From Phormidesmis priestleyi ULC007 (GTDB lineage Bacteria; Cyanobacteriota; Cyanobacteriia; Leptolyngbyales; Leptolyngbyaceae): a DNA stretch of 64,000 bases. The stretch is taken from positions 1 through 64,000 of the forward strand of contig NZ_MPPI01000021.1 in the NCBI RefSeq assembly GCF_001895925.1, written 5' to 3'. The position numbers and the translations under genes are program-made. This document shows, in pieces, positions 21,792 to 25,388 of this stretch; position 1 is the stretch's first letter; every line of letters starts with the position of its first letter. The notes under the pieces were generated by a model. The model made no database searches. It had not been told where the DNA came from and worked only from the letters and a program-made list of their open reading frames with translations.

Positions 21792-22367
21792 ATGCAAAAT
21801 CGACTTCTGGCAAACCACACAAGACTGATGAGCGTGCTGCTCACGAGTTTGCTGATGCTGCCGATCGCAACTTCTTGCGCGCCTCAACCAGCACAAGCAC
21901 CCACTGCTTCAGTGATGACTTCTCCAACTTCTTCGCCAACGCCGCAAGCGAGAGGAACGATCGTGGAGGTTGCGGCTGCCAATCCTGCGCTGAGAAACCT
22001 GACTGCCGCAATTCAGGCAGGAGGGTTAACCGCGACTCTTAAAGGTCAGGGGCCGTTCACGGTATTTGCCCCCACCGATCAAGCATTCTCAGCAGTGCCT
22101 GCGGCGACACGACAACAGCTATTGCAGCCTCAAAATCGCAAAACCCTGACTCGAATTTTGTCTTATCATGTCGTGCCTGGTGAGTTGTCTTCAAGTCAGC
22201 TTCAACCTGGAGCCATTAAGACCCTTGAAGGGCAAACTCTAGCGGTTCAAACTGGAAGTCAAGTGACCGTTAACGACGCTAGAGTTACTCAGCCTGATAT
22301 TCAAGCGAGCAATGGCGTAATTCATGTCATCGATCGCATCATTGTGCCGCCTGACGTGAAGCTTTAG
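21792..22367 (+). CDS. fasciclin (FAS1) domain lipoprotein
   Basis: A 191-residue exported lipoprotein. The signal peptide ends at the lipobox MLPIATSC, a Pro/Ser/Thr/Ala-rich linker follows to about residue 50, then one complete FAS1 domain: AANPALRNLTAAIQAGGLTA, GPFTVFAPTDQAFSAV, LSYHVVPGELSSSQL and GVIHVIDRIIVPP. FAS1 modules mediate adhesion or binding at the cell surface. ATG 21792 is the natural start. The gene converges on the rhodopsin gene with only two bases between the stops, and no separate terminator is seen. Confidence 0.9.
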   Translation: MQNRLLANHTRLMSVLLTSLLMLPIATSCAPQPAQAPTASVMTSPTSSPTPQARGTIVEVAAANPALRNLTAAIQAGGLTATLKGQGPFTVFAPTDQAFSAVPAATRQQLLQPQNRKTLTRILSYHVVPGELSSSQLQPGAIKTLEGQTLAVQTGSQVTVNDARVTQPDIQASNGVIHVIDRIIVPPDVKL

Positions 22368-22369
22368 GG

Positions 22370-23074
22370 CTATCTTAAAACTCTCTCCTGAACATGCTGC
22401 GGAACTTCGCTCGTTTGCTCTAGCTGACGCAAAGAATTCAGTGAGAGAAACCCAAACCCAACCTTAGCCGCCAAATCTAGCAGGGTGTAAGACATCGTTT
22501 CTGCACTGCTATCAATCACGCTATAGCCAGTCTTTGCCAGCATCCACACGATCGGATAAGCAGTCCACAGCACCAGATGCACGGTGAGCAGTTTGCCAAA
22601 CACCTTCTTGCCTCTAGGATGTTGCTGGGCTGCTTCTTTGCGATAGTGGTGCAGCAACAGGTAAACCAGCCCTAAATATGCACCACAGCTTACAAAATAC
22701 CAAATGTAGCTGGTGGGTTTGGGCGAGATTGTGGCGACAAACCCCGTTGCGATCATATAAATATCTGCACCTACCATGCCGGCCGCGATCGGCAAGCTAG
22801 TGCCTCCGAGAAAACTGAGCAGCACGAGAGTTAATGGTGTAGACAAAGACCAGGTGACATAGCGAACCCAATAAGTCGGACGGCTATAAATGACATTAAA
22901 ACCTTGACCCAAGACCATCGCCAGATAAAGCCCTGCTGCGATCGCGGCGATAAAAAAGTTAATCGTGTAGACAATCCGCCAAGCCTCGTTTTTGGCATTA
23001 TTTGCGCCAAAGCCAAACGCGATCGCTCCTAAAGTCATGCCCACACATCCGATCAAGAGCCAATTTTGAGTCAT
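22370..23074 (-). CDS. microbial rhodopsin, halorhodopsin-like
   Basis: A 234-residue seven-helix retinal protein. Schiff-base lysine K204 in LLDLAAKVGFGFLSL with D200 four residues earlier matches bacteriorhodopsin K216/D212. Helix C reads RYVTWSLSTPLTLVLL: positions equivalent to bacteriorhodopsin D85, T89 and D96 are T74, S78 and L85. Loss of the proton-acceptor Asp with T and S in its place is the hallmark of chloride-pumping halorhodopsins, so an inward light-driven anion pump is the best guess; Leu at the third position is notable because a reported cyanobacterial halorhodopsin has Asp there. No retinal-forming oxygenase gene lies nearby. ATG 23074. Divergent from the histidine kinase at 23442. 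Confidence 0.9.
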   Translation of the reverse strand: MTQNWLLIGCVGMTLGAIAFGFGANNAKNEAWRIVYTINFFIAAIAAGLYLAMVLGQGFNVIYSRPTYWVRYVTWSLSTPLTLVLLSFLGGTSLPIAAGMVGADIYMIATGFVATISPKPTSYIWYFVSCGAYLGLVYLLLHHYRKEAAQQHPRGKKVFGKLLTVHLVLWTAYPIVWMLAKTGYSVIDSSAETMSYTLLDLAAKVGFGFLSLNSLRQLEQTSEVPQHVQERVLR

Positions 23075-23441
23075 TGGTGGTTCCTATCCAGTTCGTTCTT
23101 ATAAAAACAAAAACCTTCGATATAGTTTAAGGAACAAATAATAGAAATCCGTCTGACCAATGGAATAACTTGACTGCCTCAGATAGAATTTCTGGCGAAC
23201 ACATATTAATAAAGAAAGATTTTGTTCCCTCAGTGAAAGCACTGAATCCAACGCCAGTTTTTTTAGGCTACGTTAGTGTTGGCGTTAAGTTTCTCAGAAT
23301 TCTCCGTACAAACTCTTAGACGGTCTTAACTTAACAAATAAATGTAGTATTTACTACTTGAATTTTTTCTAACATTACAGTATTTCTAGTTAAACATTGA
23401 TATAAAACTTTTGGAGATACTCAGGGAACTGTCACGACGAG
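23075..23441. other. AT-rich divergent intergenic region (rhodopsin / kinase)
   Basis: This 367-base stretch has no credible gene. It holds AACGCCA (23250-23256) and TGGCGTT (23280-23286) as a 7-bp inverted repeat, and the palindrome GTAGTATTTACTAC (23344-23357), which fits GTA-N8-TAC, the NtcA consensus. TATTTC lies 23 bases after it as a weak -10. A chance match is quite possible, since GTA-N8-TAC is expected every ~4 kb. Both divergent genes probably have promoters here. Confidence 0.35.
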
Positions 23442-25388
23442 ATGAGTCAACCGATTGGTAGAGCTTCAGTAGATATGGATATTACCGATCGTAAACACAC
23501 CAAAGCCGCTCTGCACACGCTCAACACTCACCTAGAGCAACAGGTGCAAGAACGCACGGCCGAACTTCTTCGCGCCAACCAAGAACTGGCAAACGAAGTT
23601 CTACAGCATCAGTTACAGATTCAGCGCAGCAAAGCCCTGAATCGGGTGATTCAGACTATTCGTAACTCGCTTGATTTAGAGACTGTGTTTGCGACCGCAA
23701 CCACAGAATTTGTCGAGTTACTGCAAGCCGATCGCGTTGGCATTATGCAATTTTTGCCAGACCAACAGATTTGGCAAAATGTGTCTGACTATGATATCGA
23801 TGTCAACTCACCCAGCTTGTTGGGGATGACGGTTCCTGATCAGGGAAATGCGATCGCAACTCGCCTAAAGCAATTAGAGATTATTCGCATCAGCCATCAC
23901 AAACAGGATGCAAACTCGCTCGATCGATTAGCTGACACGACGGCTGGGTCGTGGCTAATTGTGCCCCTTCAGGTGGATGGTGCGCTGTGGGGTAGCTTAA
24001 ATTTACTGCGAAAGGCTTCTTTACCCTGGCAAGAGTCAGACGTTGAACTGGTGTGTGATGTGGTGGATCAATTAGCGATCGCCATTCAACAAGCCGAACT
24101 GCATCGCCAAGTTCAGCAATTGAATATCAATTTAGAACGACAGGTGCAAACGCGAACGGCTCAACTTCAACTCGCCTACGATTTTGAGGCGACGCTGAAA
24201 CAAATTACTGATCAGGTCAGAGACTCTCTTGATGAAGATCAGATTCTTGAAAGTGCGGTCAAAGCATTAGCAAAACGGCTCGGTGTCGGCTGCTGTAATG
24301 CGGCAATTTTTGATATCGAACAGGGCACCTCAACCATTCGTTATGAATATGCAGCCGGAATTCCGCCTTCGATGGGCAAAGTCTCTCAACTGGCAGATTT
24401 TCCAGAGATTTATGAGCAACTTTTGCAGGGTCATCACTTCCAATTTTGCTCTCTGTTAGCTCACCCAGAGCGGGGCACCGTATCGATGTTTGCTTGCCCA
24501 ATCTTGGACGACAATGGGGTTTTGGGCGATTTGTGGCTGGTTAATCAGTCTTTTTATGAGTTTAACGATCAAGACATTCGCTTAGTGCAGCAAGTTGCCA
24601 ATCAGTGCGCGATCGCGATTCGTCAAGCGCGTCTCTTTCAGGCGGCTCAGGCACAGGTGAAAGAACTAGAGCGGCTAAATCGTCTCAAAGACGACTTTCT
24701 CAGCACGGTGTCTCACGAATTGCGGACTCCGATGGCAAACATCAAAATGGCAATTCACATGTTAGACATTATTCTGCGCGATTTGGGGATGTTTAAGACG
24801 CGGGAAAATCCGCTCGATCGCTATTTTCGAGTGCTCAAAGATGAGTGTCAGCGTGAAATTAACTTGATTGATGATTTGCTAGATCTCGCCCAGTTAGATT
24901 CGCAGCAAACGTCTTTAACTCTGAGCGAAGTGTCTCTACAGTCTTGGCTTCCTAAAGCTGTGGAGCCATTTTTAGCTCGTGCCCACAATCAGCAGCAAGG
25001 GTTAGAAATAGAGATTGCTGCCAGCCTGCCAACCGTGAAAACTGACCTATCTTATTTGGAGCGAACGTTAGCAGAGTTGCTCAATAATGCTTGCAAATAT
25101 ACGCCCGTAGGTGAGCAGATCTCAATTTCTGCATCTGTGGATGATCAAAGTGAATCGGAGGCTGTTGTGGTTCGCGTTTGCAATTCGGGGGTTGAGATTC
25201 CGATCAGTGAGCACGATCGGATTTTTGACAAGTTTTATCGCATTCCCAATAGTGACCCGTGGAAGCATGGCGGAACCGGGTTGGGATTGGCGCTGGTGAA
25301 AAAGCTAGTTGAGCGATTAGAAGGCGCGATTCACGTCGAAAGCTGTCCGGGAAAAACCACGTTTGTAGTGCAATTACCGATCGCGTAG
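23442..25388 (+). CDS. GAF-domain sensor histidine kinase
   Basis: A 648-residue soluble kinase. The first residues (VDMDITDRKHTKAALHTL) are the tail of a PAC motif normally preceded by a PAS domain, absent here. A coiled coil (LEQQVQERTAELLRANQEL), GAF 1 (~70-215, NSLDLETVFATATTEF, ADRVGIMQF), a second coiled coil, GAF 2 (~245-395), HisKA with H425 in STVSHELRTPMANIK, and HATPase with HGGTGLGLALVKKLVERLEG follow. Neither GAF shows a clear chromophore cysteine motif. It may be an originally longer protein that lost its sensor, or a natural PAS-less form. ATG 23442. Divergent from the rhodopsin gene. Confidence 0.85.
   Translation: MSQPIGRASVDMDITDRKHTKAALHTLNTHLEQQVQERTAELLRANQELANEVLQHQLQIQRSKALNRVIQTIRNSLDLETVFATATTEFVELLQADRVGIMQFLPDQQIWQNVSDYDIDVNSPSLLGMTVPDQGNAIATRLKQLEIIRISHHKQDANSLDRLADTTAGSWLIVPLQVDGALWGSLNLLRKASLPWQESDVELVCDVVDQLAIAIQQAELHRQVQQLNINLERQVQTRTAQLQLAYDFEATLKQITDQVRDSLDEDQILESAVKALAKRLGVGCCNAAIFDIEQGTSTIRYEYAAGIPPSMGKVSQLADFPEIYEQLLQGHHFQFCSLLAHPERGTVSMFACPILDDNGVLGDLWLVNQSFYEFNDQDIRLVQQVANQCAIAIRQARLFQAAQAQVKELERLNRLKDDFLSTVSHELRTPMANIKMAIHMLDIILRDLGMFKTRENPLDRYFRVLKDECQREINLIDDLLDLAQLDSQQTSLTLSEVSLQSWLPKAVEPFLARAHNQQQGLEIEIAASLPTVKTDLSYLERTLAELLNNACKYTPVGEQISISASVDDQSESEAVVVRVCNSGVEIPISEHDRIFDKFYRIPNSDPWKHGGTGLGLALVKKLVERLEGAIHVESCPGKTTFVVQLPIA

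Follow-up and report, generated by a model that had tools for sequence, protein, structure and literature searches.

The 64,000-nucleotide stretch of DNA analysed here (the window) holds a rhodopsin gene that was originally predicted to encode a halorhodopsin-like anion pump with an unusual T-S-L motif in helix C. Its leucine was thought to remove a carboxylate from the ion path and perhaps to change the choice of anion, the kinetics or the function. To which rhodopsin family does the protein belong, is the leucine exceptional, and should it matter for transport?

An intact gene of the cyanobacterial halorhodopsin family

The open reading frame is intact: it runs through positions 22370..23074 of the (-) strand, from an ATG start and with the stop included, and its 234 codons specify a protein of 234 amino acids that scores 158.8 bits against Pfam Bac_rhodopsin (cut-off 24.6). 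Alignment to MrHR of Mastigocladopsis repens and SyHR of Synechocystis sp. PCC 7509 places T74, S78 and L85 in helix C (RYVTWSLSTPLTLVLLSFL), and D200 and K204 in helix G, all as first predicted. Counted from the start of the reading frame at 23074, the (-) strand codons lie at 22853..22855 for the chloride-binding T74 (D85 position of bacteriorhodopsin, BR), 22841..22843 for S78 (BR T89), 22820..22822 for L85 (BR D96) and 22463..22465 for the retinal-binding K204. BR numbers derive from the alignment and from equivalences given in papers; the labels BR 115 (D104) and BR 212 (D200) follow from the same offsets and from the usual BR numbering. The published equivalences are SyHR D85 with BR D96 (PMC9617919) and SyHR K205 with BR K216 (PMC11995866).

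The copy in P. priestleyi BC1401 is 89% identical, with a dN of 0.071 and a dS of 1.015, the latter so high that their ratio is only rough. Compared with BC1401, the gene is under purifying selection, and on the strength of these values the reading frame is a product of neither chance nor decay. A search of the P. priestleyi ULC007 genome for a second rhodopsin found none, the protein itself being the sole match at E ≤ 0.01.

The nearest solved structures are those of MrHR (6k6i, E = 1.8e-94) and SyHR (7zou, E = 2.1e-91), and the next rhodopsin follows at 7.4e-48. An AlphaFold model built from 18 aligned relatives (pLDDT 88.8, pTM 0.84) predicts the fold of both: it superposes on the crystal structures of MrHR (6xl3) with a Z of 36.3 at 0.7 Å and of SyHR (7zou) with a Z of 36.2 at 0.9 Å, whereas CyR-II reaches a Z of 33.7 and the remaining rhodopsins about 31. 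The clade of MrHR and SyHR carries a published name, cyanobacterial halorhodopsin (CyHR). Residues R71, T74, S78, H166, E192, D200 and K204 are invariant in 18/18 aligned CyHRs, so that the window protein has both the chloride-binding Thr and Ser (T74, S78) and the helix-G Asp and Lys (D200, K204) of the family.

A histidine in helix F is said to be characteristic of the CyHR clade only (PMC9617919). Here it is H166 (codon 22577..22579 (-); SyHR H167), in a region assigned to anion release (PMC11995866, PMC9617919). All 54 CyHR rows have His at this position (13 TSL, 2 TST and 39 others); in the 11 DT* rows the position is taken by L (7), V (2), T (1) or I (1). The third motif residue, mostly D in CyHRs with V, L and I as variants, is the listed variant L85. 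Archaeal halorhodopsins have a TSA motif and no helix-F His, and the window protein, with L85 and H166, is not one of them; nor, with T74, does it belong to the proton pumps (BR, CyR), which have a carboxylate at BR 85. In trees of 63 and 67 rows, both built without archaeal TSA rows, it clusters with MrHR and SyHR and not with the proton pumps, and in the 63-row tree the TS*/TTD group separates from the DT* rows with support of 100/99. Judged by its sequence, the window protein is a cyanobacterial halorhodopsin of a published motif variant. The predicted kinship with anion-pumping halorhodopsins is thereby supported, by tree and conserved residues, as membership of the CyHR clade, and function follows by homology.

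Two further rhodopsins, from Truepera (TSV, L077) and Rubrivirga (TTD, L079), fall within the CyHR group on long branches, which may reflect transfer or an artefact of the tree.

Leucine 85 is normal for its sub-branch

Some rhodopsin match is present in 61 of the 388 genomes searched in the class. We took the 28 best CyHR-type matches, one per genome, at least 53% identical and including the window's own, as a sample and not a census: 11 are TSL, 9 TSD, 4 TSI, 2 TST and 2 TSV. Every one of the 11 TSL matches lies within the window's family, which also has two TSD copies (L013, L020). Of the 42 genomes in this family, 14 contain a match at E ≤ 1e-30, in one case solely through a 40% relative. 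Related loci were the best 80 of 226. The 47 named cyanobacterial loci include 44 that are readable (all but L078, L083 and L084), with 28 TSD, 9 TSL, 4 TSI, 1 TST and 2 TSV motifs, one of the two TSV being an artefact of the disrupted L076 frame.

Stop codons interrupt the aligned part of several CyHR copies from other cyanobacteria, with six in L076, six in L083 and one each in L074 and L084, and either the genes have decayed or the assemblies are in error. In L066/L019 the only stop is near the C-terminus and is probably the natural end.

The first tree (63 rows) takes six loci from the 28 of L085-L112, and 8 class matches beside the window, without the broken or partial L074, L076, L078, L083 and L084 and the duplicate L060. 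The 67-row set adds L012, L016, L021 and L023, CyHR matches absent from the 63-row tree, the other class matches of L002-L028 being left out, as their contigs have the same lengths as those of named loci already included. Many TSD rows are near-identical Nostoc sequences. The 13 TSL rows form one clade in both trees, supported at 99/89 (63 rows) and 100/95 (67 rows), and the motif amounts to one change. TSL and TST unite at 97/83 with one TST row (63 rows) and at 92/81, not starred, with two (67 rows). Support for TSL falls once trait columns are removed: by a quick method, without six trait columns and three long rows, and additionally without L090, L092 and L030, TSL still occupies one side of a branch, with an SH-aLRT of 82, not starred.

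The motif is also in print: TSV, TSL and TSI are named as CyHR variants, the third residue being predominantly D (PMC9617919), and TSD, TSV and TSL are named in PMC5877348. Leucine at position 85 is a normal, published residue of a CyHR sub-branch. Given a single clade for all TSL rows, 11 of the 28 class matches and the published variants, the motif can no longer be called unusual; the phylogeny proposed as a check puts the protein in a clade already bearing leucine, the outcome that the original prediction had named as contradicting it. The CyHR family is well described, and in the accessible parts of the papers its TSL branch is merely mentioned. The published BacHR rows accessible to us are TSA, TTD, TSV, TSD and TTV, with no TSL among them. 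A spectrum, transport assay or expression of a TSL protein was not found in the open-licence literature searched, outside which subscription journals mostly lie.

Linked residues beside the retinal

Three other positions distinguish the 13 TSL rows from 39 other cyanobacterial CyHR rows (31 TSD, 6 TSI and 2 TSV). Residue 104 (codon 22763..22765 (-); the BR D115 position by offset, and N in SyHR and MrHR) is D in 13/13 TSL rows and N in 39/39 others. At residue 203 (22466..22468 (-); the BR A215 position), 13/13 TSL rows have A and 38/39 others S. Residue 82 (22829..22831 (-); the BR L93 position), a colour-tuning site adjoining the retinal (PMC7979833, PMC9617919), is T in 13/13 TSL rows and L in 39/39 others. 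Both TST rows have Q82, D104 and A203, and D104 with A203 is common to all 11 outgroup rows. T82, D104 and A203 are inherited together as clade traits; their coincidence with L85 therefore counts as one event and not as a statistical correlation.

What these residues might do can be read from better-studied rhodopsins. BR 93 is an L/Q colour switch, and replacing Ala at BR 215 by Ser or Thr blue-shifts absorption by 9-20 nm (PMC7979833). In the hypothesised K state of SyHR, retinal C20 moves 1.7 Å towards L82 (PMC9617919). SyHR S204 helps to form the intracellular cavity, taken as a transient anion site (PMC11995866); since A203 replaces this residue, anion passage could be slower than supposed. 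By analogy, the colour and the speed of the cycle should depend more on T82 and A203 than on L85. In the published spectra accessible to us, one cyanobacterial TSV protein absorbs at 566 nm and three TSD proteins at 533-546 nm, a difference that may be a lead on colour.

The TST type occurs at 5001-5693 of L037 (the same contig as L007) and at 1501-2181 of L012, with Gln at the BR 93 colour switch beside D104 and A203. The accessible parts of the published descriptions consulted for the clade do not name TST as a CyHR variant.

As to branching order, the trees weakly suggest that TSL and TST form the first branch of CyHR, the remaining CyHRs making one group at 84/84 (63 rows) and 89/90 (67 rows). 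On the 63-row set, neither TST outside all others (p-AU 0.334) nor a single TSD clade (p-AU 0.227) is rejected, and for this reason separate losses of D85 are unproved. The presence of D104 and A203 in outgroup rows agrees with early branching, without proving it, and the long branches of Truepera, Rubrivirga and L073 warn against reading the CyHR root. We can offer only tentatively, as a rather doubtful picture, that TSL and TST represent an early-splitting kind of CyHR, spectrally and kinetically distinct: D104 and A203 would be retained from the ancestor, the carboxylate on the cytoplasmic side would have been lost and residue 82 would have become a polar T or Q, giving a differently coloured anion pump whose cycle involves no proton movement at 85.

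Retinal supply and gene neighbourhood

The window was noted to hold no retinal synthesis gene, and our search for PF03055 (carotenoid-oxygenase family) agrees. The absence carries no weight, because the genome has two PF03055 proteins outside the window, which lies on contig C31; their genes are on C106 and C47. One matches Synechocystis apocarotenoid-15,15'-oxygenase at 2.4e-186, the other at 3e-62.

Convergent with the rhodopsin gene, with two bases between the two stop codons, is the gene of a fasciclin-domain protein (21792-22370); BC1401 (L033) has a 25-residue piece of it in the corresponding position, where that contig ends. On the other side, a GAF-GAF-HisKA-HATPase kinase gene diverges from the rhodopsin (23442-25388 (+)). 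Its N-terminus, DITDRK, resembles the tail of a PAS/PAC domain, so the gene may be shortened. In BC1401 the rhodopsin and M61 genes adjoin without the kinase. When 10 window proteins were compared with the 44 loci L033-L076, the fasciclin piece, the M61 peptidase and the CRP-type genes were common to BC1401 only. Of the other 43 loci, 15 contain matches to the ABC ATPase, the FtsX permease or the kinases of the window, at scattered places and with 27-46% identity; we read them as paralogues of large families and rejected the neighbourhood as a clue to function. As in the window, an ABC-transporter ATPase gene does lie no more than about 4.5 kb from the rhodopsin in L034, L038, L039 and L057 (TSL) and in L053 and L059 (TSD), but these are only 27-46% identical to the window's.

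Upstream of the rhodopsin, a 25-base stretch common to BC1401 was seen by eye and then located at 23144..23168 (-); it is a possible promoter or regulatory element. Its 12-base core recurs in L037 far from the rhodopsin gene there, probably by chance. A plasmid origin was considered and set aside: five plasmid records match, none of them cyanobacterial and all under 60% identity.

Leucine 85 and anion transport

Very probably the window protein, in the TSL subclade of the CyHR family, is an inward anion pump driven by light. This mechanism, with its transport, colour and kinetics, we infer from homology to SyHR and MrHR. All-trans retinal would be bound on K204; light would isomerise it and let the anion pass the Schiff base, pause near H166 and exit to the cytoplasm, and a new anion would enter past R71. 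Leucine cannot carry charge, so no proton would move at position 85, as in archaeal halorhodopsins, which have Ala there (PMC9617919), and L85 is expected to have little effect on the pumping of chloride.

Published results on D85 point the same way. Anion release is placed at SyHR H167 (PMC9617919), the equivalent of the conserved H166, and SyHR H167A lowers chloride transport to 33% and sulfate transport to 30% (PMC11995866). Substitution of D85 in MrHR hardly alters the photocycle (PMC9617919). The proposal that leucine removes a carboxylate from the ion path and changes anion choice is weakened accordingly, although PMC9617919 also describes the role of the cytoplasmic Asp as unclear and refers to a hypothesis in which this residue keeps the anion from flowing back, the best reason to expect an effect. 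TSL rows have lost part of the D85-N39-S212 network of SyHR: N39 stays in 13/13 rows and D85 is gone, and S211 (SyHR S212) is kept in the window protein and BC1401 but is Ala in 10/13 TSL rows. We examined D104 as a general stand-in carboxylate for D85 and rejected it; TSI and TSV rows have neither residue, so D104 is no simple replacement. L85 probably matters little for transport.

A CyHR specialised by L85 in its choice of anion, for example sulfate or nitrate, is unlikely. The residues that favour such a role are T182, equivalent to SyHR T183 at a position that must be neutral before MrHR mutants can pump sulfate (PMC9525653), together with the conserved R71 and E192. As these three match SyHR, some sulfate transport is possible for the pump favoured above; none of them is L85, however, and the preferred path of the anion is drawn away from residue 85 (PMC9617919). 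Nor is T182 a TSL trait, the 31 TSD rows having T (10), E (20) or S (1). L136 also speaks against sulfate transport: it is hydrophobic, as in MrHR, and takes the place of the polar SyHR T137, which is said to account for IC2, a cavity that only SyHR has (PMC9617919).

Still less probable is a weak or slow pump acting mainly as a light sensor, its TSL/TST retinal pocket changed for signalling. Such a role would suit the altered release cavity and the residues T82 and A203 next to the retinal, and the histidine kinase gene starts 367 bases away on the opposite strand; but BC1401 lacks the kinase at that place and the anion-binding residues are conserved. An outward proton pump is hardly credible: the fold allows it, as T74D alone makes MrHR a proton pump (PMC9617919), but the window protein has T74 instead of D at the acceptor and L85 instead of D at the donor.

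Comparison with known systems

The inward anion pump that we favour is closest to MrHR (6k6i, 6xl3), with 64% identity over the aligned model at 0.7 Å and with T74, S78, H166, E192, D200 and K204 in common. It differs in having L85, T82, D104, A203 and T182 for D85, L82, N104, S203 and E182. With SyHR (7zou) it shares 61-62% identity over the aligned model, the neutral T at the entrance (182/183), R71 and E192; L85, T82, D104, L136 and A203 replace D85, L82, N104, T137 and S204.

Within the TSL subclade, the motif and T82, D104 and A203 are the same in 13/13 rows. The named members are Phormidesmis priestleyi BC1401, Leptolyngbya sp. FACHB-321 and Prado105, Lyngbya sp. HA4199-MV5, Hydrococcus sp. 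Prado102, Cyanosarcina radialis, Phormidium tanganyikae, FACHB-63 and LEGE 13415; the window protein is 89% identical to the first and 62-66% to the other eight, and with BC1401 it keeps S211 where most of the subclade has Ala. Such a natural clade without the cytoplasmic Asp, together with the apparently separate TSI and TSV lineages, provides a ready-made test set for the role of this residue. With their linked changes at two positions known from print to tune colour, the TSL and TST proteins are also a sensible choice for measurements of absorption and sulfate transport.

Archaeal halorhodopsins (TSA) are described as having the same T-S pair followed by a neutral third residue; unlike the window protein, they are without the helix-F His and form a separate clade in print (PMC9617919).
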